From a virus, in the IMG/VR virus record IMGVR_UViG_3300050137_000156, positions 1 to 50,570 of that record: a stretch of 50,570 bases of DNA; one strand, 5' to 3'. Shown here one piece after another: positions 5,507 to 50,570 of this stretch; positions within the stretch are counted from its first letter, which is position 1; the number at the start of each line of letters is the position of its first letter. Under the pieces are notes generated by a model. The model saw nothing but the letters and a program-made list of their open reading frames with translations. It was not told where the DNA came from and searched no databases. The position numbers and the translations under genes were made by a program.

Positions 5507-5513
5507 GGTGTCC

Positions 5514-8596: not shown

Positions 8597-8618
8597 GGAC
8601 GGAACCCGGGTTCCGTCC
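8597..8618. repeat. Dispersed palindrome, between divergent genes
   Basis: Perfect 22-bp copy, 35 bases upstream of the tailspike start and 13 bases before the putative moron promoter. It is the only copy that lies between two divergent gene starts. Confidence 0.97.
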
Positions 8619-19561: not shown

Positions 19562-19660
19562 TTGGAGTCGGGATCAGAAATGAGAAAAAGGCCGTCGATG
19601 CGCACGCCGAAGAGCGCGGCTCGACGGCCAGTCCGTAGGACGGAACCCGGGTTCCGTCCG
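19562..19660. other. Gap before the tape measure gene
   Basis: The gap carries the palindrome copy at 19638-19659 and otherwise no recognisable promoter. The 76 bases next to the tape measure start contain no strong ribosome site; a short run of A and G (AATGAGAAAAAGG on plus) is present. Confidence 0.6.
19638..19659. repeat. Dispersed palindrome, after the chaperone-like gene
   Basis: Perfect 22-bp copy, one base beyond the stop codon of the gene at 19661-20347. Confidence 0.97.
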
Positions 19661-24808: not shown

Positions 24809-25308
24809 CAGGCACCGTCGCCGACGGAACCCGGGTTCCGTCCGGGGGGCGCGTCGAGCTCCAGCCCGCCGTCCCCGGTTGCCGGGGCAGGGGTGCCCCT
24901 AGAATCGTCTTTCGGGTCGGGGACGGCCTTCCGGGCCTGCCGCGCCCGGACGAGCGCTACGAAGTCCCTGTAGGCGCCCGGCTCGGTCACCGAGAGGACC
25001 TCCAGGGCGAACTCCGCCGCGTACCCACGGGCGAGCGTGATGTCGACGCCCGTCTTCGCGTCGCCCTTCCCACTCTCGAACTTGGTCACGAGGAACCGCC
25101 GGTCGACGTGGGGGACGATCGTGACCCTCGGCATCGGCTCGCCGAACGCCGTCGTCGCCCCGCACTTGTCGCAGCGGTACGCGTCGACCTTCGCCGGGTC
25201 GGTCGGGACCTCGTCCTTGTGGCCGCACGACCAGCAGGTGAGTTCCCAGCCCGGGCGAGCGGCGAGGCGCGCGAGGGCGCGGTCGACGGAGCTCTCGATC
25301 TCGGTCAC
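24808..25308 (-). CDS. Zinc-ribbon protein with palindrome-coded C terminus
   Basis: A 166-residue protein from GTG 25308, coupled to the previous stop. A four-cysteine zinc ribbon is formed by C25-x2-C28 (TCWSCGH) and C46-x2-C49 (RCDKCGA). Downstream is a mixed region and a Pro/Asp-rich tail. The palindrome is translated near the end as GRNPGSV, 12 bases before the stop. Structural phage operons sometimes hold zinc-ribbon neck proteins. Nucleic-acid binding is another possibility. No family assigned. Confidence 0.75.
   Translation of the reverse strand: MTEIESSVDRALARLAARPGWELTCWSCGHKDEVPTDPAKVDAYRCDKCGATTAFGEPMPRVTIVPHVDRRFLVTKFESGKGDAKTGVDITLARGYAAEFALEVLSVTEPGAYRDFVALVRARQARKAVPDPKDDSRGTPAPATGDGGLELDAPPGRNPGSVGDGA
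24823..24842. repeat. Dispersed palindrome, inside the zinc-ribbon gene
   Basis: A 20-bp perfect palindrome (outer G/C pair missing), in frame as GRNPGSV just before the stop of the gene at 24808-25308. Confidence 0.97.
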
Positions 25309-26094: not shown

Positions 26095-26628
26095 TCAGCG
26101 ACCCCACGGGAAACCTCCCCGCCACGGGTCGCGCGAGTAGTTGTCGTTCGCGAAGACGTCGTCGTCGCGGATGATCGGCGCCGACGAGAACATGTCCGCG
26201 CGCGGACCCTTCATGCCGAGCATGCGGCAGAGCGCGTGGACGCCCTTCCTACCCTCGGCGCGGAGGCGCTTGGTCTCCCTCACCGAGTCGAGCGACGTCG
26301 CGTCCTCGTCGACCGAGAGCGCGCCGACGAACGAGTCGAGCCGCGCGATGTTCGCTTCGATCTGGATGAGCCCCCGGAGAAACGGCATCGTGAACGCGAC
26401 GTTCTGCGCCGTCCCGCCGGGCGTCACCCCGACGGGGCCCGTCACCGCGGCGGATCCGTAGATCGTCGACTTCACGAAATTCTCGGTCGACGAGTCAGGA
26501 CGCGAACCGCCGTCCGCGATCGACTGAGTCGCAGTTAGTGCACTCTCGAGGCGGGGCTCAGCCTGGAGATAGATCGCACCGAACCCGACGAAGTGTCGAA
26601 CCCAGACACGATCCTGCTCTTGGTACAT
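26095..26628 (-). CDS. Connector-region hypothetical protein (177 aa)
   Basis: A 177-residue protein from ATG 26628. Only 2 bases separate the 22-base repeat window from the start codon, so the palindrome occupies the place where a ribosome site would be and none is visible; initiation may depend on coupling to the gene before. The sequence has an aromatic start (RVWVRHFVGFGAIYLQAEPR), a Thr/Gly-rich middle, and a helical section with charged residues ending in an aromatic tail. Position suggests a connector role. Confidence 0.6.
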   Translation of the reverse strand: MYQEQDRVWVRHFVGFGAIYLQAEPRLESALTATQSIADGGSRPDSSTENFVKSTIYGSAAVTGPVGVTPGGTAQNVAFTMPFLRGLIQIEANIARLDSFVGALSVDEDATSLDSVRETKRLRAEGRKGVHALCRMLGMKGPRADMFSSAPIIRDDDVFANDNYSRDPWRGGFPWGR

Positions 26629-26630
26629 GC

Positions 26631-26652
26631 GGACGGAACCCGGGTTCCGTCT
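26631..26652. repeat. Dispersed palindrome, between two neck genes
   Basis: 20-bp perfect core at 26632-26651 with the last outer base changed. It fills the gap between the stop at 26654 and the start codon at 26628. Confidence 0.97.
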
Positions 26653-26653
26653 T

Positions 26654-26938
26654 TCAGAACGTGATGCCGGATGGGACCTGCGTGAGCCCGACCGCCGGGG
26701 CCGCGCCGACAACGAGCGTCCACGGGCCGGGGGTGGAGAGGGGCACGAGGCGCACGGGGCGCTGCATGACCGACGCCGCGATGTACGCGACCGTGTACGC
26801 GGACGCGATGGTCGGGGCGACGAAGTCGGGGAGCACCGGCTGCCCGGTGCCTCCCGACCCGCTCCCGAGCACGGTCTGGGGGTTGCCCCCGGGGGTGTAG
26901 TCGTCGATGAGTCGGTACGTGTTCGCGTTGGTTGCCAT
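26654..26938 (-). CDS. Hypothetical protein (94 aa), virion-like composition
   Basis: A 94-residue protein from ATG 26938 with AAAGGA nearby. The first 35 residues are Gly/Ser/Thr-rich (DYTPGGNPQTVLGSGSGGTG), followed by a hydrophobic helical stretch (APTIASAYTVAYIAASVMQR) and strands. It resembles small decoration or minor capsid proteins, given its place two genes downstream of the capsid gene, but this is inference from order. Confidence 0.65.
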   Translation of the reverse strand: MATNANTYRLIDDYTPGGNPQTVLGSGSGGTGQPVLPDFVAPTIASAYTVAYIAASVMQRPVRLVPLSTPGPWTLVVGAAPAVGLTQVPSGITF

Positions 26939-27857: not shown

Positions 27858-28967
27858 TCACTGCTCCGAGATGTCGACGAGGAGCCCGTGCGCATTGCGT
27901 CGCGTGAAAGCGAGCTGGCAGCGGATCATCATCGTGACCTTGATCGAGTCGCCCGTCTTCCCGAGCTCGGCGACGCGCATCGGCATCCCCGTCGCCTGGA
28001 TCGGCGCCATGCCCCCAGAGCTCCCCTCGATGCCGAGCATCGTCAGGAACGCGATGTCCTTCCCGCTCATCGTCCGCGGGAGGTACTTCACCATCATCTT
28101 GTCCGTGTTGAGGAGCGCGAGCTTCCCCGACGGGTTCAGGCGGTTCCGGATGACCTGGCGCCCCTTGTACATGAGCGCGTCGAACTGACCGCTCGAGTTC
28201 GGCGGCACGCCGAGCCCGTAGACGGGCGAGCCCGCCTGGTCGTTCATGCGGATCAGCGGGAGCTGCGACGGGTTCGTCGCCGTGCCCTGGAAGATGCCCG
28301 CGTACTTGTTCGCGACGCCCGCGCTCGTCATCACGAGGTTCCACGGGATCGAAGCCCCGAGGAAGATGTTCGAGTCGACCGTGTCGAGGAGCTGGGACGT
28401 CAGCGCGCGCGGCACGCCACCGTTCGAGACGGAGAGGGCGTTCCACTCCGAGTACGTCGCCGGGTTGATCCCGAGGTAGACGCCGCCGCCGAGCCCACCG
28501 CCGTAGACGCCGACGATCGTCGGGTTGCCGAACGAGTCGACGCCCGTCCCGACGAGTGAGTCGTTCTCGATCTGCGACGCGATGGCCGCGCCGGCGGAGA
28601 GCACGCGAGCGCCAAAGATGTCCTTGATCTGCTGGGGCATCCCCTGCGGACCGGAAGTGAACGCCGCGTCGATCTCCGTCTCGGTGATCTGGAACGAGGA
28701 GCGGTAGGTCGCCCAGGGAGCGAACGCGGGGACGTCGATGTCCGTCGCGTACTCCGTCGCCGGCACGTCCGAGCCCTCGGCCACGGTCTGCGCCGTCGCA
28801 CCCGTGAACTCGACGTCGAACGCGACGTTCCTCCCCTTGCCCTCCGAGACGCCCTTGCGCGCCTGGAGCTGCCCGAGCAGGAAGGTCGTGCGGTTCCACT
28901 GCCGCTGGAGGTCCCCCTCGAAGAGCTGGGGCAGTGCGTTGAAGATTGTGGTGAGCGACTCACTCAT
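27858..28967 (-). CDS. Major capsid protein (HK97 fold)
   Basis: A 369-residue protein from ATG 28967 behind GGAAAG. The order of segments fits HK97-type capsid proteins: helical N-terminal arm (DLQRQWNRTTFLLGQLQARK), E-loop strands (YRSSFQITETEIDAAF), spine helix with ARVLSAGAAIASQIENDSLV, and P-domain ending with MMIRCQLAFTRRNAHGLLVD. The adjacent scaffold gene and hairpin after the stop support high late expression. No protease is encoded nearby. Confidence 0.9.
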   Translation of the reverse strand: MSESLTTIFNALPQLFEGDLQRQWNRTTFLLGQLQARKGVSEGKGRNVAFDVEFTGATAQTVAEGSDVPATEYATDIDVPAFAPWATYRSSFQITETEIDAAFTSGPQGMPQQIKDIFGARVLSAGAAIASQIENDSLVGTGVDSFGNPTIVGVYGGGLGGGVYLGINPATYSEWNALSVSNGGVPRALTSQLLDTVDSNIFLGASIPWNLVMTSAGVANKYAGIFQGTATNPSQLPLIRMNDQAGSPVYGLGVPPNSSGQFDALMYKGRQVIRNRLNPSGKLALLNTDKMMVKYLPRTMSGKDIAFLTMLGIEGSSGGMAPIQATGMPMRVAELGKTGDSIKVTMMIRCQLAFTRRNAHGLLVDISEQ

Positions 28968-30174: not shown

Positions 30175-30196
30175 GGACGGAACCCGGGTTCCGTCC
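30175..30196. repeat. Dispersed palindrome, near 30.2 kb
   Basis: Perfect 22-bp copy. It lies 34 bases after the stop at 30231 and 18 bases before ATG 30156. Confidence 0.97.
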
Positions 30197-31304: not shown

Positions 31305-32996
31305 TCAGTCCTCACCCTTCGCGTCGTCCGGTTTCTTATCCCCGCCCTTCGGCGGGAAGCCGGGAGCCGCGCCCGGGGGCGGAGGCGGACCCTGCTTGAT
31401 GATCTGCTTGTCGAGGTCCATCTGCATCTGCCGCTTCTCTTCCTCGGCGTCGATGCCCTGGTCGATCTCCTCGGCCATCTGCGCGACCGTCGCCGGCGGT
31501 AGGCCCGGCACGAGCACCGTCGCCACGCGCTTCGCGTGCTCCTTGCGGAACGTCGGCGACGGGATGGCCACGAGCGCGAGCGACGTCGCCTCCTGGATGA
31601 CCGCGGCGCGGTCGTACGTCTCGTAGTTGTCGATGCCCGACGTGACCCAGACGACTTCTTCGGCACGCGCCTTCGAGATGGCGTCGTAGACGCTCCCGAA
31701 GAAGGCCCGGACGTAGCGCCCGAGCGCCCCGAGCACCTTGTCCGTCTTGTCCTGGTCCTTCTGCTTCGAGAGGCCCGAGCGACCGAGCGCGCCCGCCGAG
31801 GGGCGGATGCTCGCCGACATCTGGTGGTTCACCGCGAACATCGCCTCGCGCACGTGGTCGACCTGCTTGTCGATGATCTCGTACGCGTGCCCGTGCGGCT
31901 CCGCGAAGTCGAGCTTGTCCTCGTGCCCGAGCGTGAGGAACCCCTTTTTGTTGAACTGCGCGATCGGGTCCTCGCCGCGGTGCGGGTCCTCCGCCGCCTC
32001 CGAGTTCGACTCGCCGATCGCCGGCATCTCCGGCCCCTGCGTCACGTAGGGGATCGAGACGCACGACCGCTTCTCCGCGCCGACGAGCTCGGACCGACGC
32101 ACCCAGTGCTCGAGCGCGAGCGGGCCGATCTTGTTGCCGACCCAGAGGCCCTTCGGGAGCTCGAACCGGAGCAGGGGCACGCGGTCGAAGCTCGTCGACC
32201 CGCCCTGTACCCAGGGGATCGCGTCCTCGGGGCGCGGGTCGGTCTGCCCAGGCACGTACGTAACGGCGTACTGGTCCCAGCGAGCGCACGCGTCGGGCTC
32301 GTCGCTAATCGACCAGATCGTGAACGTCTCGGTGACGCTCTCTCGGGTGCTCGCCGGCGTCGCCCGCTCCTGTTCCTTGCGGAAGAGGATGACCCACGCG
32401 AACGTGCTCGTTTTCTTGCAGTCGGGCCCCTTCTCGACCTTGAGCTTCCAGTCGATGACCTGGTCGGGCGGGACCTCGTAGACGTAGCAGCGGCGCGCGC
32501 CGCTCGCCTCCTCGTCCGCCATGTTCACGGGAGCGGGGCCCGTCGCCATCGGAGCGTCGACCATCAGGTACGCGCGCCGGTGCTTCAGGCCCGTCGTCAG
32601 GATGTCGGCCGCCATGTCGGCGAGCCCGTTCCCCTCGCCGTCGACGTCCTTCGCGAAGTCCGCGTAGAACTCCTCGTCGGGGAAGACGCCGGGCGTGTCC
32701 GGGTTCTTCGCGTCGCCCGCGGGGACGACCGCTAAGGGCTGCGAGAAGAGGTCCGAGACGAACTGGTCGACGATCTCCCCGAAGTAGGGGACGTAGGCGG
32801 TCGTCGAGATGCGGCTCGCGTAGAGCGTCGGGTGCTCCATCGGCAGGGGAGCGATGTAATCGCTCGCCTTCCTCATCATCTGCCAGCCGCCCTCGTAGAG
32901 GTCCTCGACCTGCGTGTACTGGCGGCCCGGGTACTCCCCGTGGTGCTGCGTCAGCAGCGCGTAGAGCAGGCCGCTCTTTGAGGGGGCGTCGGGCAT
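31305..32996 (-). CDS. Portal protein
   Basis: A 563-residue protein. Portal features: the N-terminal helices (YEGGWQMMRKASDYIAPLPM), wing strands, a FDRVPLLRFELPKG segment, the stem region LGRSGLSKQKDQDKTDKVLG and the C-terminal barrel helices (PATVAQMAEEIDQGIDAEEE) with a flexible Pro/Gly/Lys tail. It forms the dodecameric channel through which the terminase pumps DNA. It lies in the block with terminase and scaffold, as expected. Confidence 0.88.
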   Translation of the reverse strand: MPDAPSKSGLLYALLTQHHGEYPGRQYTQVEDLYEGGWQMMRKASDYIAPLPMEHPTLYASRISTTAYVPYFGEIVDQFVSDLFSQPLAVVPAGDAKNPDTPGVFPDEEFYADFAKDVDGEGNGLADMAADILTTGLKHRRAYLMVDAPMATGPAPVNMADEEASGARRCYVYEVPPDQVIDWKLKVEKGPDCKKTSTFAWVILFRKEQERATPASTRESVTETFTIWSISDEPDACARWDQYAVTYVPGQTDPRPEDAIPWVQGGSTSFDRVPLLRFELPKGLWVGNKIGPLALEHWVRRSELVGAEKRSCVSIPYVTQGPEMPAIGESNSEAAEDPHRGEDPIAQFNKKGFLTLGHEDKLDFAEPHGHAYEIIDKQVDHVREAMFAVNHQMSASIRPSAGALGRSGLSKQKDQDKTDKVLGALGRYVRAFFGSVYDAISKARAEEVVWVTSGIDNYETYDRAAVIQEATSLALVAIPSPTFRKEHAKRVATVLVPGLPPATVAQMAEEIDQGIDAEEEKRQMQMDLDKQIIKQGPPPPPGAAPGFPPKGGDKKPDDAKGED

Positions 32997-33010: not shown

Positions 33011-33030
33011 GGACGGAACCCGGGTTCCGT
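33011..33030. repeat. Dispersed palindrome, before the portal gene
   Basis: 18-bp perfect core at 33013-33030; the outer right bases read TTC instead of TCC. It directly abuts the stop of the P-loop gene (33031). Confidence 0.95.
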
Positions 33031-33432
33031 TCACTCCTGGAGTTGCACTTCCACGCCGCGGCGCACGAGCTCGGGCCAGACCTCCGACCAGATCGTCTCG
33101 CACCCCTTCGCCATCGACTCCTGCCCCTTGCTCCGGGTCTCGAGGGGCCGGTGGAGCCACGCGACGACGTCCGCCGGCTTCTCGTCCGGGTTCGCCGCCA
33201 TCCACTTCCGGAGCGCCCGCACCGCGGTCACGCCCTCGACGATCCACGGGCCCGGCTCACCGAGCCACTTCGCGACCTCGGCCGACGCCTGGCTCCACTC
33301 GTGGACGCCGACCAGGCTGTCGGTGTGCCGGACGCGGAAGCCGTCGGAGACGCGAGACTTCGCGAGGTGCGTCTTGCCCGTCCGCGGCCCGCCCGTCAGG
33401 ACGACGCGCCCCGAGCGGGGGAGGTAGATCAC
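33031..33432 (-). CDS. Small P-loop nucleotide-binding protein
   Basis: A 133-residue protein with a Walker A motif at residues 14-21 (GGPRTGKT), an early beta strand (RVVLTGG) and a second strand near residues 62-66 (PWIVEG). This is the minimal order of small nucleotide-kinase-like P-loop proteins. GTG 33432 overlaps the previous stop. It has no lid domain and is short for a kinase, so ATP/GTP binding is likely but activity is unclear. Its place between terminase and portal is unusual. Confidence 0.75.
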   Translation of the reverse strand: MIYLPRSGRVVLTGGPRTGKTHLAKSRVSDGFRVRHTDSLVGVHEWSQASAEVAKWLGEPGPWIVEGVTAVRALRKWMAANPDEKPADVVAWLHRPLETRSKGQESMAKGCETIWSEVWPELVRRGVEVQLQE

Positions 33433-33701
33433 CGCGACGCGGGGCCGCTACCGGCCCGCTCGCGCGCTTTCGAGTTCGGGTCGGGGTACCGGCGCCTGAC
33501 GTTCGTGAAGAGGTCGAGACCGCCTCCGTCGACGATGTCGTTCGTGTTCGCTGTCTGCCTCGACGAGTAGTCGACGGCGACGGAACCCGGGTTCCGTCCG
33601 ACTCGGTCCGCGTTGAGCGTCACCCCGCCGTCGGTGCAGCAGAACGCGCGGTGGAACGCCGCGTCGAGCCAGTGCCGGAGCATGAGCGAGAGCTTCATCA
33701 T
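33429..33701 (-). CDS. Small protein with palindrome in its middle
   Basis: A 90-residue protein from ATG 33701 (a second Met follows). The N terminus is basic and helical with CC at 21-22 (RHWLDAAFHRAFCCTDGG). The palindrome is read in frame as GRNPGSV near residues 35-41. The second half is basic and flexible. Coupled at both ends (ATGA, GTGA). The palindrome divides two halves that differ in composition, as if inserted or used as a joining point. Confidence 0.65.
   Translation of the reverse strand: MMKLSLMLRHWLDAAFHRAFCCTDGGVTLNADRVGRNPGSVAVDYSSRQTANTNDIVDGGGLDLFTNVRRRYPDPNSKARERAGSGPASR
33579..33598. repeat. Dispersed palindrome, inside the gene at 33429-33701
   Basis: 20-bp perfect palindrome, translated in frame as GRNPGSV in the middle of a 90-residue protein. 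Confidence 0.97.
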
Positions 33702-33965: not shown

Positions 33966-35312
33966 CTAGTACCGCGAGAGGTTCATCGCTTCGAGCGACT
34001 TGTTCTCGCGCTTCTTCACGGGGGCGAAGGCGAGACTCGAGAGTGCCCAGACGACCGCGTCGAGCCGGTTCGGGCTCGTCATGCCGGTCAGGGGCTCCCA
34101 CGTGCACATCTCGTCCTCGAGGTTAGGGAAGCACCCGACGTGGTGGACGCGCTTGCGCTGGTAGAGCGAGGAGATCGGCTCGGCGCGCGCCCGCTTGCCC
34201 TGCGACGCCCAGACGCCCTCGTACGGGAGGTCGTTCCGGATGGTCCGGAGCGTGCTCTCGACCATCTCCCCGCCGTTGTTCTCCTCGCCGATGAGGCGGT
34301 CGCAGTCGAAGTCGTCGAAGACCTTGATCGCTCGCCGTCCCCAGTCGAGCGGCTTGAAGCGCCCGCTCGCGTCGGCGAAGACGTAGAACTCCTTGTTCGA
34401 GTCCATCGCGGCGCCGACGATGCCCGTCTCGTCGCTCGTCTCCTTCGACTTCGCGGCCGGGTCGATCGCGACGACCGCTCGAACGATATTCGCCGGGAGC
34501 TTGTCGACCCGCATCCCGGGCCACTCGAACATGTCCCGGCTGAAGAGCGCCCCCTCGACGTCCTCGAGCAGCTCGGCCTCGAGCTCCTGCCGCCCGAGCC
34601 GCGTCCCCTCGTACTTCGAGACGACGTCGCGGTAGAACTCGTCGGCGAGGTTCGCGCGGTTGTCGTACGTCGACCCGCGCGTCATCGCGACGTCCTTGCT
34701 CGCCCGCTTCATGAGCTGGCGGACGAGCGGCTTCGGCTTCGGAGTCGTCGTGACGACTCCGCGTAGTTTGAGTCCCCCTGTCGGCCGGAGGCGGAAACCG
34801 AACTGGAGCTGGTCCCACGCGTCGGGGTAGGGCCACGCCGCGAGCTCGTCGCACCAGTACGTGTCGGCCTGCTTGTTCCGGAACCGCTCGGGCTCGTCCG
34901 CGCTGATGAGCGTCGCCCTCGCGCCGTTCGGCCACGTGAGCCGAAGCTTCGACGGCTCGTAGTCGGGGTAGTTCCACGGGGGCGAGCACGCGAGGATCCC
35001 GCTCTCGCCCTCGATCATCGCCTCGCGAATGTCGTTCGACGTCGGGCCAGCGAGGACGAGCCGTCGAGAACCGCGCGCGACGCGACTGATGATCCACTCG
35101 GCGCCCGTCCGCGTCTTGCCGAACCCTCGCCCTGCGAGCAGGAGCCAGATCGTCCACCAGTCACCGTCGGGCTCGAGCTGCTCGCCCCGCGCCCAGAAGG
35201 GCCACGAGAACGAGAGGGCGTCGATCTCAGTGGGGCTGAGACTCTCCACGATCGCCCGCTGCTCCGCGGGCGGCAGCGATGCGAGCGATTCGGCTGAGAA
35301 CGTCCTCTGCAT
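33966..35312 (-). CDS. terL: Terminase large subunit
   Basis: A 448-residue packaging ATPase/nuclease. Walker A LAGRGFGKT is at residues 59-67, Walker B with the catalytic pair D155-E156 lies in YWCDE, and the coupling motif region (VTTTPKPKPLVRQL) follows near 187-200. The RNase H-like nuclease domain shows its acidic residues in AIDPA (D284) and in the final RLDAVVWAL (D418). It cuts concatemeric DNA and pumps it into the procapsid through the portal. Its start overlaps the TerS gene by 86 bases. Length is normal for the family. Confidence 0.96.
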   Translation of the reverse strand: MQRTFSAESLASLPPAEQRAIVESLSPTEIDALSFSWPFWARGEQLEPDGDWWTIWLLLAGRGFGKTRTGAEWIISRVARGSRRLVLAGPTSNDIREAMIEGESGILACSPPWNYPDYEPSKLRLTWPNGARATLISADEPERFRNKQADTYWCDELAAWPYPDAWDQLQFGFRLRPTGGLKLRGVVTTTPKPKPLVRQLMKRASKDVAMTRGSTYDNRANLADEFYRDVVSKYEGTRLGRQELEAELLEDVEGALFSRDMFEWPGMRVDKLPANIVRAVVAIDPAAKSKETSDETGIVGAAMDSNKEFYVFADASGRFKPLDWGRRAIKVFDDFDCDRLIGEENNGGEMVESTLRTIRNDLPYEGVWASQGKRARAEPISSLYQRKRVHHVGCFPNLEDEMCTWEPLTGMTSPNRLDAVVWALSSLAFAPVKKRENKSLEAMNLSRY

Positions 35313-36319: not shown

Positions 36320-36341
36320 GGACGGAACCCGGGTTCCGTCC
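36320..36341. repeat. Dispersed palindrome, near 36.3 kb
   Basis: Perfect 22-bp copy between the stop at 36355 (13 bases) and the next start at 36309 (10 bases). Confidence 0.97.
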
Positions 36342-37570: not shown

Positions 37571-38007
37571 TCGGACGGAACCCGGGTTCCGTCCGACTTC
37601 CACACTTCCTCGATTACTACCCACCGATCGCGCCCCGGCTGCGTGACCGCCCTTTGGTAACCCCCGTTCTCGAACTTGAACGTCGCGTTGACGTACGTCG
37701 GCCCCCTCTCGTAAAAGACCCCGCCCGTCCGCCTCCACTCCGCGGCGTCACGCTCGTAAGCAACGCACTCCGACGCGTACTGCTCCTCGGTCAGCTCGAC
37801 GACGAACTCCTCGCCGTCGTCGCCGTACTCGGTGATTCGCCTCTCGGGAGGCGCGGGGGGCATGCGCTGGTGCCGTTGACCTTCGTTCCGCACGTCGAGA
37901 ATGATCGACACGAGCGGCGACCCCGAGTGCGGGCACGACATCCGAATGGGCGGCGCGTCGTACGAGGCGAGTAGCGCAATCGCGTCGGTGAGCTTCGCGT
38001 CGCTCAC
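37567..38007 (-). CDS. Hypothetical protein with palindrome-coded C terminus
   Basis: A 146-residue protein from GTG 38007. It contains a Pro/Arg-rich centre, an acidic stretch (EYGDDGEEFVVELTEEQYAS) and a beta-like part (PTYVNATFKFENGGYQ). The palindrome encodes its last residues (DGTRVPSE, then stop), and the stop overlaps the next GTG. The same arrangement recurs at 42784, which suggests use or insertion of the element at gene ends. Confidence 0.7.
   Translation of the reverse strand: MSDAKLTDAIALLASYDAPPIRMSCPHSGSPLVSIILDVRNEGQRHQRMPPAPPERRITEYGDDGEEFVVELTEEQYASECVAYERDAAEWRRTGGVFYERGPTYVNATFKFENGGYQRAVTQPGRDRWVVIEEVWKSDGTRVPSE
37573..37594. repeat. Dispersed palindrome, at the end of the gene at 37567
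   Basis: Perfect 22-bp copy that codes DGTRVPS, one codon before the stop of the gene and three bases before the GTG of the next. Confidence 0.97.
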
Positions 38008-41344: not shown

Positions 41345-41365
41345 GGACAGAACCCGGGTTCCGTC
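41345..41365. repeat. Dispersed palindrome, diverged copy
   Basis: One internal base is changed (ACAG instead of ACGG) and one outer base; the centre AACCCGGGTT is intact. On the minus strand RNA the change leaves a G.U pair, so pairing there is kept. Confidence 0.9.
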
Positions 41366-41421
41366 GTCAGAAGCCCACCCCGCGACCGGATGCGCTCGAA
41401 CCGGTCGACGACGAACACCCG

Positions 41422-42664: not shown

Positions 42665-42787
42665 CTAGTTCCTACGCGTCGCGAGCCACATCGAGGCGAG
42701 CCCGGCGCAACGGAAGACGGGGATCTCGAACGCCGAGGCGAGCCTCGGCGCCCAGTGCCAGACCCCCCACGCCCGAGCGCTCGTCAC
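42665..42787 (-). CDS. Short aromatic protein (40 aa)
   Basis: A 40-residue frame from GTG 42787 overlapping the stop of the upstream gene (GTGA), just past a palindrome. It is hydrophobic and Trp-rich (TSARAWGVWHWAPRLASAFE, then IPVFRCAGLASMWLATRRN). It may be membrane-associated. Coupling and position support it, but size makes it uncertain. Confidence 0.5.
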   Translation of the reverse strand: MTSARAWGVWHWAPRLASAFEIPVFRCAGLASMWLATRRN

Positions 42788-43710
42788 GACGGAACCCGGG
42801 TTCCGTCCAGCGTCGGGAGCCGCTTCCTCCGCACGATCTCCGGTATCAGGTCCTTCGACCGACCGTGACTTCTGAATCCCACGATCGAGTGGCGGAACGG
42901 GTTCGCGCAGAGCTCGCACTCGACGCACGTGATCCCGCTCGTCTGCGCCGGACAGACGACGACCCTCCGCCCCGCCGGAGTCCGCACTCCCTTGTCAGGC
43001 GCGTCCGCGGGGAGCACGCACGTCACCGGCAGCGGGTACTCCTCGACCCCGTCAGCGTCGAGCCTCGGCCCGAGCAACGCGTCGGCGTGCTCGAGGGAGT
43101 CGGCCGAGAGGTTCACCGTGAAGCCTTCCAAGATCGCCCACTGGTACGCGGCGAAGTACTCGGCTCGCGTCTTGTGCGTATACGTGAAGCCGCGCCTCCC
43201 CGCGTTCGCCTCCACGAGCTCTCCGAACTTCGCGAGGTCGAGCGACTCCCCTTCGCCGGCGAGGTCGCCCGCCTCGTTGTGCCGCCACACCGCGCCCTCG
43301 GGGAGCGACTTCACGAGCCCGAGGAAACCCTGCCACGAGTGTCCCCTCGACCCGTCCCCGCCGAGACCGCGCCAGTGCGCGCCGAGGTGACCCGACGACG
43401 CGTAGCAAGCGGCGTCGTAGAAGCTACAGCTCGGTGGGCACGTCCCGCGCTCGGAGATCGAGACCGGCATCGGGCCCGTCTTCTTGTTCTGGCTCGAGAG
43501 CGAGAAGAGCACGCGACCCGTCGGCTTCGGGTCGACCCGCTTCGGTTGACTCGCGACCTTCTCGGCGTCCGTCTTCTTCGACCAAATCGAGTACTTCGAA
43601 AGGCACGCCGTGCAGTTCTTGGCAGTCGGCTTGCCACTCTTGCCGATGAACGCGGAGGGGTAGGGCTTCGCCGCCCAACACTGGTTACAGCGTCGCGTCT
43701 CGCCGATCAC
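42784..43710 (-). CDS. DUF7227/GP88-like Cys-rich phage protein
   Basis: A 308-residue protein from GTG 43710. An N-terminal zinc finger has C8, C11, C33 and C36. The core then shows the pattern of a phage and mobile-element family I know as DUF7227 or GP88: LSSQNKKTGPMPVSI, CPPSCSFYDAACYA (C91, C95, C102), AVWRHNEAGDLAGEG, GRRGFTYTHKT, FTVNLSADSLEHAD, RTPAGRRVVVCPAQ and a final CVECELC with IVGFRSHG. The cysteines probably hold a metal centre; the family's activity is not established to my knowledge. The palindrome codes the last residues DGTRVPS before the stop. Confidence 0.78.
   Translation of the reverse strand: MIGETRRCNQCWAAKPYPSAFIGKSGKPTAKNCTACLSKYSIWSKKTDAEKVASQPKRVDPKPTGRVLFSLSSQNKKTGPMPVSISERGTCPPSCSFYDAACYASSGHLGAHWRGLGGDGSRGHSWQGFLGLVKSLPEGAVWRHNEAGDLAGEGESLDLAKFGELVEANAGRRGFTYTHKTRAEYFAAYQWAILEGFTVNLSADSLEHADALLGPRLDADGVEEYPLPVTCVLPADAPDKGVRTPAGRRVVVCPAQTSGITCVECELCANPFRHSIVGFRSHGRSKDLIPEIVRRKRLPTLDGTRVPS
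42788..42807. repeat. Dispersed palindrome, at the end of the DUF7227-like gene
   Basis: 20-bp perfect palindrome coding DGTRVPS directly before the stop, which overlaps the next GTG. This is the same layout as at 37573. Confidence 0.97.
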
Positions 43711-43976: not shown

Positions 43977-44489
43977 CTACCCGACGCCCGTCATCCGCTT
44001 GCGCCGGACGTTCTTCAGGAACCGCGCCTTCGTCACGATGTCCATCCTGTCGAGGAAGAGCTTCCCGTTCAGGCTGTCGATCCCCTGCCAGATCGCCCGA
44101 GACCCGCTCGCCCCGCACCCCACCTCGCGCAGCCGACCGTCAAGGCTCCGATACCCGACGACGACCGTCACCGGGCAGATCGTCCTCTCCGGCACGCACA
44201 CGAAGCTCGCGCACGCGCCGAGCTCGTAGCTCTCGCCACTCGTGCTCCGGACCTTCGGGTTGCACAAGATCGACATCCCTCCCGGAGTGCGGAGCGCGAG
44301 CATGCTCCAGCACGGGTCGAAGTCGACCTGCGTCGTCGCGAGTACGTCGACTCCGTCGATCGGCTCGAGGACCGACGAGAGCAGCTCGGCGAGGTCGCGG
44401 AGCGTCGGCGTCCCGAACGCCTCCGGACCGAGCTCGGTCGCGCGCCGACGCATGCGCATTTCATCGGCTGGAAACGTGAGGAGCCTCAC
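43977..44489 (-). CDS. Hypothetical protein (170 aa)
   Basis: A 170-residue protein from GTG 44489, coupled to the methyltransferase stop. It has a helical N terminus (MRRRATELGPEAFGTPTLRD), strands with several Cys (FDPCWSMLALRTPGG, SILCNPKVRS, ACASFVCVPERTICPVTVVV) and a helical end. It resembles small alpha/beta accessory proteins. No family recognised. Confidence 0.65.
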   Translation of the reverse strand: MRLLTFPADEMRMRRRATELGPEAFGTPTLRDLAELLSSVLEPIDGVDVLATTQVDFDPCWSMLALRTPGGMSILCNPKVRSTSGESYELGACASFVCVPERTICPVTVVVGYRSLDGRLREVGCGASGSRAIWQGIDSLNGKLFLDRMDIVTKARFLKNVRRKRMTGVG

Positions 44490-45160
44490 GCCTTCACCCA
44501 GAGGGAGATCCCGTACGTCGCCGGGTCGGGCGTCTCGCGAAGGCACTGGAACCCCGCCCCGATCGCGATCTCCCTCACCCGGTCCCGCTTCTCCGGCGAG
44601 TGCCACTCGATGAGCAGCGCGCAGCACGTCGCGAGGTGGGGGTACTCCGACAAGACCTCGATCTCCGCCCCCTCGCAGTCGACCTTCAGGACGTCGCACG
44701 GCGGGAGGTCGCGCGGGTGGAACCCCTCGACCGGCCACGCGCACGTATCGTCCGCCGCCGCGATGTGGTGGGCGCCCCAGTCCTCGGCCCCGTTCATCTT
44801 CGGCGCGGGGTCCGTCGTCACCGCACGCCGAAAGAGCTCGACGTACCCGTTCCCCGAGATGAGCGCGTGCGTCGTGTTCTCGACGAGGACGTCGGCCGCC
44901 TCCGCGTGAGGCTCGAACGCGATGACCGCGATCCCCGGCCACTTCTTCATCGCCCAGACGACGAACGGGCCCCACGACGCCCCGATGTCGATGACGACCG
45001 CGGGATCTCCTCCCCACCCGAGGAGCTCTTGAGGGAGCCCCGGGTCGTCGTATTCACCGTTGAAGACCTGCCGCGAGAGCTGCTCGCAGACCTCGGCGGT
45101 TCGGGGATGGGCAGACTCCGGGATGCGGAAAGGCCCGAGCGGGCCGTCGATCGTGATCAT
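44486..45160 (-). CDS. FkbM-family methyltransferase
   Basis: A 224-residue SAM-dependent methyltransferase of the FkbM type. Motif I is VVIDIGASWGPF (residues 56-67), the acidic residue after strand two is in AFEPH, and the FkbM signature LKVDCEGAE lies at 158-166. FkbM enzymes methylate sugars or lipids, often O-methylating surface glycans. In an operon with several glycosyltransferases it would modify a phage- or host-surface sugar. ATG 45160 overlaps the previous stop. Confidence 0.9.
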   Translation of the reverse strand: MITIDGPLGPFRIPESAHPRTAEVCEQLSRQVFNGEYDDPGLPQELLGWGGDPAVVIDIGASWGPFVVWAMKKWPGIAVIAFEPHAEAADVLVENTTHALISGNGYVELFRRAVTTDPAPKMNGAEDWGAHHIAAADDTCAWPVEGFHPRDLPPCDVLKVDCEGAEIEVLSEYPHLATCCALLIEWHSPEKRDRVREIAIGAGFQCLRETPDPATYGISLWVKA

Positions 45161-45312
45161 GTCCTCTTCTTCCCTTCGTTCTTCTCGAGTGAGAACTGCC
45201 TCACGCAATTGCCGTAGTGCCCGGGTACCGGACAGGCGCACGCCCCGCACCGGACCGGCTCCGGCGGGTTGAACCGCGCGACGTCGAGCACGCCCGTCGG
45301 GGAGTCGCTCAC
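45157..45312 (-). CDS. Small Cys-rich protein (51 aa)
   Basis: A 51-residue protein from GTG 45312, coupled at both ends. Cysteines in VRCGACACPVPGHYGNC are close enough for a zinc or disulfide knot. It ends basic. It lies between a transglycosylase-like gene and the methyltransferase. Too short for a firm function. Confidence 0.6.
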   Translation of the reverse strand: MSDSPTGVLDVARFNPPEPVRCGACACPVPGHYGNCVRQFSLEKNEGKKRT

Positions 45313-45788
45313 TCCGGCCCCGCACCGATCGCCCGGACGATCCTCAGCACCTCGGCCACCCGCCTGTCCGCCAGACGCCTCGCCGCGCCGCCGCACTGCC
45401 CCGATAAGGGCGCGAGGGGGCTCGCCGGGCACGTCCGCTCCCCGTCGTGCGCGAGGGCCAGCCACGCCACCGCCTGCCCCACCAGCGTGGGCGGCAACGT
45501 CGCGCATCGCTCTTGCCAGGGCCCGCACGAGACCCCCGCCTTCGAGTCCCACGAGAACGGCTTCGGGTGGAGCGACAGGCGGCTCTCGTGCCAGGCCCAC
45601 TGCGCCATCACCGCCGCCTCGACGCTCGCGTCCCCGTAGAGGGGGTCGGGGTCACCCGCTACCGACGTCGCGATGGCGTCCGCGATCGCCAGCGCGTCGG
45701 GGGACTGGCCCGCGGTCGGCGAGAGGAACGACCACGTCGCGACGACGAGTGCGCGCAGGGTCTCGATCGTATTCGCTACGTCGGTCAT
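45309..45788 (-). CDS. Lytic transglycosylase-like protein
   Basis: A 159-residue protein from ATG 45788. The central segment WAWHESRLSLHPKPFSWDSK with Glu68 followed by SCGPWQ (87-92) matches the ES...GxWQ pattern of SLT/lysozyme-like enzymes that cut peptidoglycan. The N terminus is a plain helix with no signal. The gene is coupled to the GT fusion (ATGA). It may be a virion lysozyme or a second wall enzyme separate from the GH25 endolysin. The Cys content is unusual. Activity is inferred from the motif. Confidence 0.62.
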   Translation of the reverse strand: MTDVANTIETLRALVVATWSFLSPTAGQSPDALAIADAIATSVAGDPDPLYGDASVEAAVMAQWAWHESRLSLHPKPFSWDSKAGVSCGPWQERCATLPPTLVGQAVAWLALAHDGERTCPASPLAPLSGQCGGAARRLADRRVAEVLRIVRAIGAGPE

Positions 45789-48238
45789 GCGGATGTCCTC
45801 GGGAGCGGAATCCCGCGCGGACCACCGATGACGTTCGACCCATTCGGACGGAACCCGGGTTCCGTCCGTCTCGCACCCGGAAGGTTCTCGCGAATCGCCC
45901 GGTCGAGCGCCGCCGCCTTGTTCGCGAACGTGAACTGCTTCGCGAAATCGCGCCCGATCGACGAGTGCGTCTGCCCTCCGCTCCCGAGCAGATCCAGCAC
46001 GCCGAATCTCCACGATTCGAGATCGGTGGATACCCACGCCCCGGTCGTCGACCCCCCGTAGAGCGACTGAAGCGCGTCCCCGCCCATCGTCACGACGTTC
46101 ACGCCGATCGCGAGGCACTCAGCAACCGAGACCGAGAACGTCTCGCACGGCCCCGCGGGCGCGTCGAACGGGAACGGGAACATCACAGCCGACGCGAGCT
46201 CGCTGAGCATGTCCCGGCGCGTGAGTCGGCCGAGGAACTTCACGCCCGTATCGCCGAGTCTCTTGATCGCCGCCTTCACGCGCGCCGCGGCGATACCCTG
46301 CTTGTTCTTGACGCCTTCGTAGTGGGCGAGCCACCCCGCGACGTCCCCGACGACGTGGAGCGTCGCCCCGGGTCGCTGCCTCCGGATCTCCGGCCACGCC
46401 TCAAGCAAGTGGTGCAGCCCTCGCGACGGCGACGTGTGGTAGATGCACCGGCCGGGGATCGGGTCGTGCTTCGGGAGGTCGGGCTGGAGCCCGTTCGGCA
46501 TGACGTACCAAGGCGACGACGTGTCGAACACAGGCCGGAGCGCGTCGACCGCGTACTGCGACGGGGCGAGGTTCACGTCCGTCCACTCGAACGCGCCCGG
46601 GCAGGGGATCGCGAACGTGTGGTGCGACGCGACGCGGAGGCAGTCGGTCACGCCGACCAGCGGACTCGTGTCGTAATAGGCGACGAGCACGTCGCGCTTC
46701 GACTTCGGGTCGAAGTCGGTGATCAGGTGATACGACGGTTCGCTCTTCCTGTCGTGCCTCGGTAGGAGGCCCGCGAACGTCGAGTACGCCCGCACGTCGT
46801 AGCCGAGTTTCGGCAGCTCTCGCACGAGGCCCATGAAGCCGGCGCGGCACCCGCCGCCGCTGTTCGAGTCGAAGGGTCGGTCGATGTCGATCGGCTCCGC
46901 CCCGCTCCCGTACGGCGTCAGCACGAGGTCGACCCTCGGGCGCTCGAGAGAGCGCGTATCGCCCACGGGGCGCGTCCAGACGTCGTCGGGCACCTCGGCG
47001 ACCGGAGCGTTCTTCTTTACGATCCCGTCCTCGATCATCTGCTCGAGCTGCGCCGCCAGCGTGCGCCAGTCGTGGGCCCTCGCGTGCTCCCGGCCGAGCG
47101 CCGCGAACTCGCGACGGAACCCGGGTTCCGTCAGGGCCCGGACGACGAGGTCGGCGAACTCCCCCATCCGCTCCTGCACCGGCGCCCGCACGACCGCCGC
47201 CGCGTGCCCGTGGACCTCCTCGAGACAGTCCGCCGACGAGATGACCGGCACCGCGCCCGCCGCGCACGCCTCGAGCGTCGCGACGCTGAACGTCTCGGTG
47301 AAGGCCAGCGGCGAGCAGGGATACGCGAAGCACTCGGCCTCGCAGAGCTCCTTGACGAGCTGGCGGTGCGAGACCCCGCCGACGCGCGTCACCCCGTGCC
47401 CCTCGAGCTTGCGGAGCGCGTTCCGGACGTAGAGCGCCCGCCGCGTGCACTCGTGGTCGACGGGACCGCCGAACCGTTTCGCCGGATCGCAGTGGTGGGC
47501 GATCCACGAGTCGAGACTCTGGTAGTAGATGCGGAGGTTCGCGGTCGGTACCCGCCTCCGGATCTCCGGCCACGCCTGGAGGAGCAGGTGCAGGCCGCGG
47601 TCAGGCGAGGACGTGTACGCGACGCGACCCGGGACCTTCGGTTCGAGTCTTGGGTGTATGCCGATATCGATCCGGGGTTCATCCGAAATCTTATACGCAT
47701 TCGTCGCGAACTGCTCCGGGTAGCACCCGTTCGGGAGTACCGAGAACTTCGCCGCGACCGAGGCGGGGAGACCCGCCGTCACGTACCGCTTCGACGTCTC
47801 GCTCGGCACGAGGTAGAGGTCGACGAACGCGTCGTACCCGTGCGTCTCGTACTCGTGCGTGTCGATCCCGAAGACGGAGACTTGGCGGTTCACGACCCGG
47901 AGCGCCTTCGGGTTCGCGTGCTGGAGGCAGTTCGGGTTCGACGTCGCGATCACCGCGTCCCACTCCCCCATCCTCTCCGAGTAGCCGACGTCCCCCCAGT
48001 ACTTGAAGTCGCGCACCTCGACTCGGTGATCGTTCGAGTCGCCGAACGACGTCCGCTCACCGACCCCGTGGCAGTAGAAGACGACCTCGTGCCCCCGCGC
48101 CGCGAGCTCCCGCGCGTAACACAGGGCGATGAGGTCCGTCCCGGTGAGGCCGCTCTTGTGCCCCTCGAGGTCCGAGAAGTCGAACGGCTCGCGGTGCGCC
48201 CCGAAGGCCACCGTCGCGTATACGAATGCGATCTTCAT
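45785..48238 (-). CDS. Tandem GT4-GT4 glycosyltransferase fusion
   Basis: An 817-residue protein with two full GT-B (GT4-type) units. Unit 1 (about 1-390) begins KIAFVYATVAFG and has YTSSPDRGLHLLLQAWPEI and the donor-site part ETFSVATLEACAAG. Unit 2 (about 430-780) has YHTSPSRGLHHLLEAWPEI and CETFSVSVAECLAIG. The shared motif points to an old duplication. The palindrome occurs twice in frame as TEPGFR, at about 370-375 inside a helix and at about 792-797 in the C-terminal tail. GT4 enzymes add sugars from nucleotide donors. Two sugars may be added in sequence. Confidence 0.9.
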   Translation of the reverse strand: MKIAFVYATVAFGAHREPFDFSDLEGHKSGLTGTDLIALCYARELAARGHEVVFYCHGVGERTSFGDSNDHRVEVRDFKYWGDVGYSERMGEWDAVIATSNPNCLQHANPKALRVVNRQVSVFGIDTHEYETHGYDAFVDLYLVPSETSKRYVTAGLPASVAAKFSVLPNGCYPEQFATNAYKISDEPRIDIGIHPRLEPKVPGRVAYTSSPDRGLHLLLQAWPEIRRRVPTANLRIYYQSLDSWIAHHCDPAKRFGGPVDHECTRRALYVRNALRKLEGHGVTRVGGVSHRQLVKELCEAECFAYPCSPLAFTETFSVATLEACAAGAVPVISSADCLEEVHGHAAAVVRAPVQERMGEFADLVVRALTEPGFRREFAALGREHARAHDWRTLAAQLEQMIEDGIVKKNAPVAEVPDDVWTRPVGDTRSLERPRVDLVLTPYGSGAEPIDIDRPFDSNSGGGCRAGFMGLVRELPKLGYDVRAYSTFAGLLPRHDRKSEPSYHLITDFDPKSKRDVLVAYYDTSPLVGVTDCLRVASHHTFAIPCPGAFEWTDVNLAPSQYAVDALRPVFDTSSPWYVMPNGLQPDLPKHDPIPGRCIYHTSPSRGLHHLLEAWPEIRRQRPGATLHVVGDVAGWLAHYEGVKNKQGIAAARVKAAIKRLGDTGVKFLGRLTRRDMLSELASAVMFPFPFDAPAGPCETFSVSVAECLAIGVNVVTMGGDALQSLYGGSTTGAWVSTDLESWRFGVLDLLGSGGQTHSSIGRDFAKQFTFANKAAALDRAIRENLPGARRTEPGFRPNGSNVIGGPRGIPLPRTSA
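45846..45867. repeat. Dispersed palindrome, in the tail of the GT fusion gene
   Basis: Perfect 22-bp copy read as TEPGFR, about 60 bases before the gene's stop. Confidence 0.97.
47113..47132. repeat. Dispersed palindrome, inside the first GT4 unit
   Basis: 20-bp perfect palindrome read as TEPGFR within a normal-looking GT4 helix (LTEPGFRREFAALGREH). Confidence 0.97.
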
Positions 48239-50570
48239 CAGACTGTCTCCTCGACTCGGAACTCTCGGTACGCGGGCAGCGCGCCGTACTGCGCCGCCTC
48301 CATCAACTTGGCGAAGAGCGAATCCCAGCTCTTCGCGACTCCGTCCCACCCGAGGTCGCGGATCGCGACGCTCGCGATCGTCTCGCGCGAGTCCGGACCC
48401 CCCGCGCCCGCCTGCGACGTCAGTACCGCGACCGAGGCGTCGACGAACCGTCTCTGGTAGTCGTCGCTCACCCAGTCGCCCTCGACCATCGTCCCGAACT
48501 TCCCGACCGTCTCCGGGAGCGCCGCGATCGGCGACGTGACGATCCGCATCCCCGCAGCGCGCGCCTCCATGCAAGCCATGCACGACGTCTCGGTCCACCA
48601 GGTCGGGTAGAGCAGCGCCCCCGACGACCGCATCAAGTAGGCGAGCGCTCGCTTGTTCAATCGCGCGTGGTGCTTCACCCCGAGCGCGTCCATCCGCCGA
48701 ATAAGCGTCGAGATGAGGAACCGGTGGTTCTCGTCCTTCCGCTCATCCGCCTGCCGCGACCAACCGCGGAACCCGTACGCGACCTCGAGCGTCGCCCCCG
48801 GCACTCGCTCGGCGATCGCCGGCCACATGTCGAGCAGCGCGCCGAGCCCGCGGTCCGGCGACGAGACGTAGAGCGCCCGCTTCGTGTCCCGCGCCGGCGG
48901 AGGACCGCCGTACAGGAGGGGTTCGACCCCGTTTCGCGTCAGGAAGACCTGGCTCTCGGGGATCCCGTGCTTCGCGATGAGGTTCTTCGCGTGCCACTCC
49001 GAGAGGGCGAGGAACCGGTCCGCGAGCAGCGAGTGACCGTACGTCATCCCGATCGCCTCCGTGTCGTGGCACCACATCAGCCGGACCGCCGCGTCCCCCT
49101 GGGCGAGGAAGTGCGCGACCCTCCACGCGACGAGCACGTCGCACTTCGGTCGGAGCTCCGGAGTCCACGCCTCGTAGTCGACCCCGCCGAACGTCCCGTC
49201 CTGCCCGGGCGCCCCGAAGACCCTCACCTTGTGCCCGAGCTTCGCGAGCCGCTTCGCCACCTCGACGACCGCGGTCTCGCTGCCCCCCGCGCCCTGCCTG
49301 GCGACCGTCTCGGGGTTCCAGGCCTCCGGGGCCGGGCCGCACATGAAGACGACGTCCAGGGGCGTCCTCGCGGCGGCAATCGGGGTCCCCGCCTTCCCCC
49401 CGTCGATCTCGAACTTGTACCAGTCGGTAGGGCGCGGTTCTCGGTCGCCGTTGCGCTTTGGCTGAGTGATGTACACCGCGTTCTTCGGGACGCTCGGGGA
49501 TGCGATGACGTCAATGGACGGAACCCGGGTTCCGTTCAGAGCGCCGTCGTTGAGCTTCTTCTCGACGACCCCGCCTTCCCCGTCTCCTAGCACTCGGGGG
49601 TCCGGAAACTGCACGCCCTTCCACGTCGTCATGAGCCTCGGGTCGGGCTCCTTCGTGTCGAACGACGCGACGAGCTTCGCCGCCGCGTACCGCTTCCGCG
49701 CGAAGAGGAGCTGGGGGTTCGCGGGCTGCGCCTCGAGCGCGCGCTCCGTCGCTTCGAGCGCGGTCGCCCAGTCCTGCTCCGTCTCGGCCGCCACCCTCAT
49801 CAGGTCGTGGACGACGAAGGCTCGCTCCTGGGGATTCCTCCCGATCGGCGTCCGCGTCTCGGGGCACGAGAGCGCGTCTCGGCACGCGCCGACGACGTTC
49901 CCCATCGAGTCCCGGCCGAGTACCGTCCCCGCCATCATCTCGAGCTTCGCCACCGCGAAGTGTACTTCGAAGTCGTTCGGGCGGATCACCGCGGCTCGCG
50001 CGATCCACGACCGCGCCTCCGAGTACTCGCCCTTACCGGCGAGGTCGAGCGCGAGGGCGCAGTCCGCCGCGCATAGGCACGCGAGCGCGCGCTCCTCCTC
50101 CCAGCCGCTCTGCTCGACGTGCGCCGCGAAGTGGGGGATCGCCTCCGCGAACCTCCCCGCCGCGTGGAGCTCGAACCCGAGGTTGATGTGCGTCCACGGG
50201 TCGTCGTGCCCCTCGACGAAGTACCTCTCAAGGATCGCGAGCGACCGGGAGCGCGCGCCCGTCTCCTTCCTCTGGTGGACCCAGCGGACGTCCCGCATCC
50301 AGTAGTCGGTACCCGGGTCGATCTTGTGCCCGTTCCGCTTCACGAGACCCTCGTGCGTCGGGTGCTCCCAGACCCACGTGCCGTCGTTCGGGACGATGCG
50401 CTCGCGCCACTGCTGGCGCGTCACCGCGCCCGTCTCGGCGTCGTGCTCGTAATCGTAAGGGCCGAGCAAGCGACCGAGCTTCGGGTTCGACTTCTCGACG
50501 TTCGCGATCTCCCGCGCGATGTTCTCCGCGCCGACGACGACGTCGTCTGTATCGAGCCACCCCAGCCACG
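48238..50570 (-). CDS. GT2-TPR-GT4 glycosyltransferase fusion (5' end outside the window)
   Basis: The frame is open to the window edge, giving 777 residues in view. The first visible residues, WLGWLDTDD, are the DxD metal site of a GT2 (GT-A) domain whose start lies outside. A helical repeat (TPR-like) section follows (WTHINLGFELHAAGRFAEAI, DFEVHFAVAKLEMMAGTVLG). The rest is a GT4 (GT-B) domain with YVSSPDRGLGALLDMWPAIA and the MEARAAGMRIVTS region. The palindrome codes NGTRVPS in the linker. Several transferases in one chain suggest synthesis of a defined oligosaccharide. It shares a stop/start with the next GT gene (TGATG). Confidence 0.9.
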   Translation of the reverse strand, partial: WLGWLDTDDVVVGAENIAREIANVEKSNPKLGRLLGPYDYEHDAETGAVTRQQWRERIVPNDGTWVWEHPTHEGLVKRNGHKIDPGTDYWMRDVRWVHQRKETGARSRSLAILERYFVEGHDDPWTHINLGFELHAAGRFAEAIPHFAAHVEQSGWEEERALACLCAADCALALDLAGKGEYSEARSWIARAAVIRPNDFEVHFAVAKLEMMAGTVLGRDSMGNVVGACRDALSCPETRTPIGRNPQERAFVVHDLMRVAAETEQDWATALEATERALEAQPANPQLLFARKRYAAAKLVASFDTKEPDPRLMTTWKGVQFPDPRVLGDGEGGVVEKKLNDGALNGTRVPSIDVIASPSVPKNAVYITQPKRNGDREPRPTDWYKFEIDGGKAGTPIAAARTPLDVVFMCGPAPEAWNPETVARQGAGGSETAVVEVAKRLAKLGHKVRVFGAPGQDGTFGGVDYEAWTPELRPKCDVLVAWRVAHFLAQGDAAVRLMWCHDTEAIGMTYGHSLLADRFLALSEWHAKNLIAKHGIPESQVFLTRNGVEPLLYGGPPPARDTKRALYVSSPDRGLGALLDMWPAIAERVPGATLEVAYGFRGWSRQADERKDENHRFLISTLIRRMDALGVKHHARLNKRALAYLMRSSGALLYPTWWTETSCMACMEARAAGMRIVTSPIAALPETVGKFGTMVEGDWVSDDYQRRFVDASVAVLTSQAGAGGPDSRETIASVAIRDLGWDGVAKSWDSLFAKLMEAAQYGALPAYREFRVEETV
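49516..49535. repeat. Dispersed palindrome, in the GT2-TPR-GT4 gene
   Basis: 18-bp perfect core (49518-49535) with the same TTC outer variant as at 33011. In frame as NGTRVPS in a linker before the GT4 domain. Confidence 0.95.

Follow-up and report, generated by a model that had tools for sequence, protein, structure and literature searches.

Fused, TPR-bearing glycosyltransferases of an uncultured contractile-tailed phage as a probable virion-protein glycosylation cassette

Corndog-type (cluster O) mycobacteriophages carry an O-methyltransferase, two glycosyltransferases and a putative N-acetylglucosaminyltransferase between the portal and protease genes (PMC4351075), and these enzymes are reported, in a passage of PMC11600133 that cites Freeman et al. 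2023, to modify the capsid and tail tube proteins; mycobacteriophage glycans sit at the C-termini of the capsid and tail tube subunits (PMC12619734). In the literature we searched, experimentally reported virion glycosylation rests on mycobacteriophages. Here we describe a module at the right end of the IMG/VR virus record IMGVR_UViG_3300050137_000156 (positions 1 to 50,570; this whole 50,570-bp stretch is called the window below), in which a contractile-tailed, soil-type phage encodes a GT2-TPR-GT4 and a GT4-GT4 fusion of glycosyltransferase domains together with an FkbM-family methyltransferase. Given the Corndog-type precedent, the module belongs to a known kind: in both, phage-encoded glycosyltransferases accompany a methyltransferase in or close to the virion genes, the expected product has several sugars and methylation, and the window, like the cluster O genomes, contains a dispersed palindromic repeat. 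The Corndog enzymes are, however, single-domain, whereas those of the window are fused (and joined into one protein of 1,120-1,142 amino acids in relatives), and the window phage is contractile-tailed, has a different genome and is known from its genes alone; searches of phage collections, the sole sequence comparison with the Corndog enzymes, did not return them. What sets the module apart is a fused, TPR-bearing architecture that is related to protein glycosyltransferases and widely spread among uncultured phages; no description of a GT2-TPR-GT4 architecture was found in the open-licence papers searched. We put the probability that the module is a virion-protein glycosylation cassette at roughly two in three, and the phage most likely uses it to decorate its own capsid or tail proteins with a methylated sugar chain.

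Several other described enzymes share parts of this organization. GmaR, the flagellin O-GlcNAc transferase of Listeria (GlcNAc, N-acetylglucosamine; PDB 22ao), likewise has an N-terminal GT2 domain followed by TPRs, but it ends in an anti-repressor domain where the phage protein ends in GT4, and its acceptor differs. Its glycosyltransferase domain puts GlcNAc on flagellin, and its TPR domain has been proposed to recognise the protein substrate (PMC9638930). The peptide S-glycosyltransferases SunS and ThuS (PDB 7msn, 7msp, 7msk) resemble the phage protein, by sequence and by fold, in combining GT2 with a helical domain, but are without a GT4 domain. The Manatee Spring podovirus MW202524 and uncultured relatives encode a GT2-TPR-GT4 protein beside the major capsid protein (MCP) gene, followed by glycosyltransferases and methyltransferases; the podovirus protein (UOF78238) is only about 32% identical, goes with a different capsid family, and owes its annotation as 'beta4glucosyltransferase' to automatic naming. 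The Actinobacillus capsule polysaccharide multi-enzyme (PDB 8qoy) has several glycan enzymes per polypeptide and is the top fold match of the GT4-GT4 protein, but its overall TM-score is low (0.23-0.29) and it makes a bacterial capsular polysaccharide.

The glycosyltransferase module and its conservation

The two fusions and the FkbM gene lie on the minus strand where the initial annotation had placed them. In transcription order the right end of the window encodes the GT2-TPR-GT4 protein, the GT4-GT4 protein, open reading frames (ORFs) of 159 and 51 amino acids, the FkbM protein, a deformylase-like protein and a DUF7227 protein. The features of the module are:

48238-50568, minus strand: GT2-TPR-GT4 protein, its GT2 domain cut by the contig end
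50254-50568, minus strand: C-terminal remnant of the GT2 domain, starting at WLDTDDVV (alignment with the complete homologue of the relative G001; PHROG 13126)
49669-50253, minus strand: TPR domain (Pfam TPR_2 and TPR_14; all-helical in the AlphaFold model, G001 residues 188-382)
49375-49668, minus strand: divergent, low-confidence linker between TPR and GT4 (model confidence, pLDDT, <50 at G001 residues 384-501), carrying a palindrome at 49516-49537
48238-49374, minus strand: GT4 (GT-B) domain (Pfam Glyco_transf_4 and Glyco_trans_1_4; G001 alignment; Foldseek matches to MshA, PimA and AviGT4)
45785-48238, minus strand: GT4-GT4 protein (Pfam Glyco_trans_1_4, 1.2e-19, two stretches)
47009-48238, minus strand: first GT4 unit of this protein (Pfam; G001 alignment; Foldseek matches to MshA and PimA), with EX7E motif ETFSVATLE (E315/E323)
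45881-46936, minus strand: second GT4 unit (Pfam; G001 alignment), with EX7E motif ETFSVSVAE (E699/E707)
45309-45788, minus strand: 159-amino-acid protein between GT4-GT4 and FkbM, without Pfam match and absent from G001
45157-45312, minus strand: 51-amino-acid ORF between GT4-GT4 and FkbM
44486-45160, minus strand: FkbM-family methyltransferase, 224 amino acids (Pfam PF05050; PHROG 8156, methyltransferase)

The GT2-TPR-GT4 and GT4-GT4 genes join in a TGATG overlap and the later ORFs overlap by 4 nucleotides; as consecutive genes of the module overlap by a few bases, translational coupling is plausible, and the coupled operon of the initial annotation stands, with the qualification that two small ORFs separate GT4-GT4 from FkbM.

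With the contig ending at 50570, only the last part of the GT2 domain, from the DXD motif (WLDTDD) onward, falls within the window; the full N-terminal GT2 domain was confirmed in the complete 885-amino-acid homologue of G001 (G001 5121-7778, minus strand). A DXD-bearing GT2 domain of GT-A fold with TPR-like helices behind it is present completely in G001 and partially in the window. In the GT2 remnant, the DXD residues D6, D8 and D9 are invariant in homologues. Across 32-33 aligned homologues the invariant or nearly invariant positions (G001 numbering) are D85, D87 and D88 of the DXD motif, the GGSE region, and R585, H603-D604, R677 and E767, the latter four being donor or catalytic sites of GT4. 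The AlphaFold model of the G001 protein (pLDDT 82) consists of a GT-A domain, a TPR superhelix, the low-confidence linker and a GT-B domain; Foldseek matched its N-terminal half to SunS and ThuS and its GT-B part to MshA, PimA and AviGT4 (TMt about 0.65-0.73, a range that also covers the GT4-GT4 matches), as fits a GT-B fold of two Rossmann-like halves, and the overall fold matches were the TPR-bearing protein O-glycosyltransferases OGT and SPY. Full-length TM-scores were low because the linkers are flexible, and the domain-level fold matches were used instead. A profile of the fusion compared with the PDB matched GmaR (7e-14, over 180 residues), SunS (6e-9) and ThuS (7msk; 2e-7), all of them GT2 enzymes that act on proteins or peptides. 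SunS and ThuS modify a cysteine of bacteriocin peptides.

The EX7E motif is kept in each of the window's three GT4 units, reading ETSCMACME (E660/E668) in the GT2-TPR-GT4 protein, together with the basic donor-phosphate residue typical of GT4, an arginine in SSPDRGL (R573) or TSPSRGL. Donor-site residues, which the initial annotation had singled out for checking, are thus present in every glycosyltransferase unit, and the structure predictions that it had called for gave the expected folds for both fusions, although the GT4-GT4 model is the weaker one (pLDDT 72, five sequences). Scans of viral contigs with the GT4-GT4 protein matched G001 alone. The methyltransferase scores 27.0 bits against PF05050, above the curated cut-off of 22.7; a PDB search with it gave no match. 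Judged by these motifs, the enzymes of the module look functional.

Among phages of the same capsid family, G001 carries the whole module in the same gene order at 58-65% identity to the window genes (58% for FkbM), with GT4-GT4 overlapping FkbM directly (2740/2743) and the two small ORFs missing; on the aligned sequences, this conservation is more than chance. G011 carries a two-gene version (760 and 755 amino acids) upstream of the portal gene, and the examined part of that genome showed no FkbM homologue. In G010 and G012 all glycosyltransferase domains are found in a single protein (1,142 or 1,120 amino acids) inside the head-gene operon, flanked by homologues of the window head genes at 26654-26938 and 26095-26628, the latter being followed immediately by an FkbM gene; the fusion is interleaved here with FkbM genes, and the FkbM protein inside the G010 operon is 38.6% identical to that of the window. 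Since they are fused in one protein in these two phages, the glycosyltransferase units belong to one pathway. In a tree of GT4 domains the five same-capsid phages (window, G001, G010, G011 and G012) unite (92/91) and the two arrangements separate, and this grouping makes inheritance of the module followed by rearrangement probable. Hence, the glycosyltransferase set has probably been inherited together, and it lies inside the head operon in two of the five same-capsid phages. One pattern-limited scan brought up no host operon with the same genes in synteny, the contrary case raised in the initial annotation; the full-length cellular homologues found were limited to a lone gene of a Desulfobacterales metagenome-assembled genome (L027), which nests among phage sequences in the GT4 tree. 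A search for close relatives of the GT2-TPR-GT4 protein by exact peptides found nothing.

The fusion is nevertheless common. A scan of viral contigs with a three-sequence alignment recovered at least 81 IMG/VR loci that encode it, most matching over the whole length, and the initial annotation's generalization that phage glycosyltransferases are usually single-domain enzymes for DNA or O-antigen modification is not supported, since the fusion is common in uncultured phages. The loci for the capsid-linkage count were picked by the glycosyltransferase alone; among the 79 analysed, 58 have an MCP homologue upstream on the same strand, at a median gap of 487 bp and in 51 of the 58 at less than 1.5 kb. 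The next two downstream genes of about 55 loci (107 proteins) include 13 GT4 and 9 GT2 proteins and 12 methyltransferases plus 5 FkbM proteins, besides sugar-nucleotide enzymes and virion proteins. Still longer phage glycosyltransferase proteins were seen in L177 (1336 amino acids), L134 (1349) and L183 (1575), the last including, in a single chain, a methyltransferase domain besides two GT2 stretches, TPR and GT4 regions.

The acceptor of the sugar chain

The domain content, the intact donor motifs, the conservation of the set in one capsid family, the kinship of the GT2-TPR part to protein glycosyltransferases and the recurrent location in head-gene operons are direct observations. On these we propose that the GT2-TPR part would use its TPR superhelix to bind a structural protein of the virion and would transfer the first sugar to a side chain of the bound protein, that further sugars would be added by the GT4 domain fused to this part and by both units of the GT4-GT4 protein, probably in this order, and that the FkbM methyltransferase would O-methylate it. 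The acceptor is accordingly placed among the virion proteins by kinship and gene linkage, and the capsid protein is the most likely one. The main reason for preferring a protein acceptor over a lipid-linked one or DNA is the relationship of the GT2-TPR part to protein glycosyltransferases, by which the predicted enzyme may transfer sugar to the side chain of a protein or peptide. The multi-enzyme oligosaccharide synthesis of the initial annotation, with the virion as a likely target, agrees with this kinship and with the modules in head-gene operons. Several glycosyltransferase genes and a methyltransferase among virion genes, the arrangement of the Corndog type, are found in G010, G012 and the Manatee-type phages; in the window the module is on the same strand as the capsid gene but apart from it. 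The structural genes concerned are:

33966-35312: terminase
31305-32996: portal
27858-28967, minus strand: MCP, candidate acceptor (PHROG major head protein); in G010 and G012 the homologous glycosyltransferase modules adjoin this gene
20762-22543: tail sheath

Tape measure, baseplate proteins and endolysin are likewise encoded in the window, and nearly all of the genes named here are on the minus strand.

Several points weigh against virion-protein glycosylation: 1) the module of the window lies about 16 kb upstream of the capsid gene in transcription order, not beside it. 2) The 57 podovirus-like loci make up a single capsid superfamily (30% identity, single linkage), and the 58 MCPs together fall into 17 groups at 50% identity; one superfamily means deep conservation of one arrangement and not 57 independent events. 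3) The second glutamate of EX7E is lysine or glutamine in many podovirus homologues, where the window copies keep glutamate, and the chemistry may differ among these homologues. 4) Serine and threonine are only moderately raised in structural proteins (up to 21% against 13.5% overall), and inspection of three capsid sequences by eye showed no acceptor tail rich in these residues. 5) FkbM enzymes methylate non-sugar substrates too.

The initial annotation had also proposed the host surface as target, with lipopolysaccharide or another polysaccharide altered in infection or lysogeny so as to block superinfecting phages. Some phages do change the host serotype, the GT4 units are similar to glycolipid transferases of the envelope such as PimA, and soluble glycosyltransferases could act on lipid-linked intermediates. 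However, a gtrABC-type set (GtrA flippase, GtrB and membrane-bound GtrC) is not found in the fragmentary records of the window, G001 and G002: GtrA is missing from all three (the control was positive in 11 of 14 genomes), the glycosyltransferases have no membrane-spanning stretch, and no tyrosine integrase was detected in the three records. Superinfection exclusion as the leading reading was dropped after these checks; with homologous modules embedded in head-gene operons and GT2-TPR relatives that act on proteins, a host-surface glycan is an unlikely target. The idea that a host protein (flagellin, pilin or a secreted protein) is glycosylated during infection takes its appeal from GmaR, the best match of solved structure, which acts on flagellin; the match is limited to the shared GT2-TPR part, and the genes linked to the module are phage head genes rather than regulators or host-like genes, so that we regard the idea as improbable.

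Glycosylation of modified DNA bases, by which phages escape restriction, is a known role of phage glycosyltransferases, and we keep a small probability for it because G001 encodes a C5 cytosine methyltransferase and an MT-A70 enzyme. Yet no thymidylate-synthase-family hydroxymethylase was found in the window, G001 and G002 (control positive), the initiating enzyme is a TPR-linked relative of protein glycosyltransferases, and the homologues are placed with head genes and not with replication genes. TET/JBP gave no match in the three records, where the positive control was silent too, and since these records are incomplete the absence of GtrA, integrase and hydroxymethylase is only suggestive. 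That the genes are decaying and now functionless auxiliary genes acquired from a host polysaccharide locus might be read from the divergent linkers and from the neighbouring deformylase-like gene without active site, but it is very improbable in view of the open frames, the invariant catalytic residues, the gene order conserved in G001 at 58-65% identity and the complete, though rearranged, set of G010 and G012.

Virion-protein glycosylation is thus the reading that we prefer for the window. Its wider form is more tentative, with chances slightly short of even: a GmaR/SunS-like GT2-TPR-GT4(-GT4) multi-enzyme beside the capsid gene, widespread in many uncultured phage lineages and largely unrecognised, would start and extend a methylated oligosaccharide on the capsid protein. 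If this is true, virion glycosylation in many uncultured phages would be carried out by multi-domain relatives of protein glycosyltransferases encoded beside the capsid gene, phages with glycosylated virions could be recognised by a signature in their sequence, and single expressed polypeptides would allow initiation and extension to be tested on a capsid protein.

A dispersed palindrome and the neighbouring genes

A near-perfect 22-bp palindrome, GGACGGAACCCGGGTTCCGTCC, occurs in 17 copies in the window, against 0.3 expected (12-bp core, up to one mismatch), at these approximate positions:

453-474, 997-1018, 8597-8618, 16241-16262, 19638-19659, 24822-24843: palindrome copies
26631-26652, 30175-30196, 33011-33032, 33578-33599, 36320-36341, 37573-37594: palindrome copies
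41345-41366, 42787-42808, 45846-45867, 47112-47133, 49516-49537: palindrome copies

There are 16 copies in G001 and 8 in G002, a 14-bp core recurs in G003 (20), G004 (10) and G005 (7), and the palindrome is absent from G010-G012. Thirty of the 41 copies in the window, G001 and G002 lie no more than 100 nucleotides from a predicted stop, where 11.2 were expected and 21 was the maximum in 2,000 random placements. For 9 of the 11 G001 and G002 copies in or near window-aligned regions, a window copy is located within 90 nucleotides of the projected place, in genomes only about 72-80% identical where positions were compared. Within the glycosyltransferase genes, the copies close to the stop codon of GT4-GT4 and in the linker of GT2-TPR-GT4 reappear at similar sites but are read in different frames (EPGFR or GTRVPS), and selection therefore seems to act on DNA or RNA. 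The palindrome is probably a regulator-binding site or a transcript-end element; its core, GAAC-N4-GTTC, presumably resembles a LexA box of the Gram-positive type. The closest precedent is the 17-bp palindrome of Corndog, repeated 34 times (PMC4351075).

Two genes adjoin the module in both the window and G001. One, at 42784-43710 (minus strand), encodes a DUF7227 phage protein (Pfam, 6e-67; G001 copy L020:3-959, minus strand). The other, at 43977-44459 (minus strand), encodes a peptide-deformylase-like protein (Pfam PF01327, 36.6 bits; G001 copy L020:1410-1922, minus strand) without the HExxH metal-binding site, QHEMDHLNG of the PDB alignment being replaced by WQGIDSLNG in the window and WQGIESLDG in G001; by this substitution it is a predicted, conserved pseudo-deformylase.

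G001 and G002 come from the same metagenome (3300010371) and align to adjoining parts of the window, ending at ~21390 and ~21480, and the two records may be parts of a single phage genome. G001 also contains inteins, one being a Hint/LAGLIDADG insert in a UvrD-type helicase (L021:12741-16097, minus strand) and the second, with an HNH domain, lying in another helicase (L022:4085-6316, minus strand).

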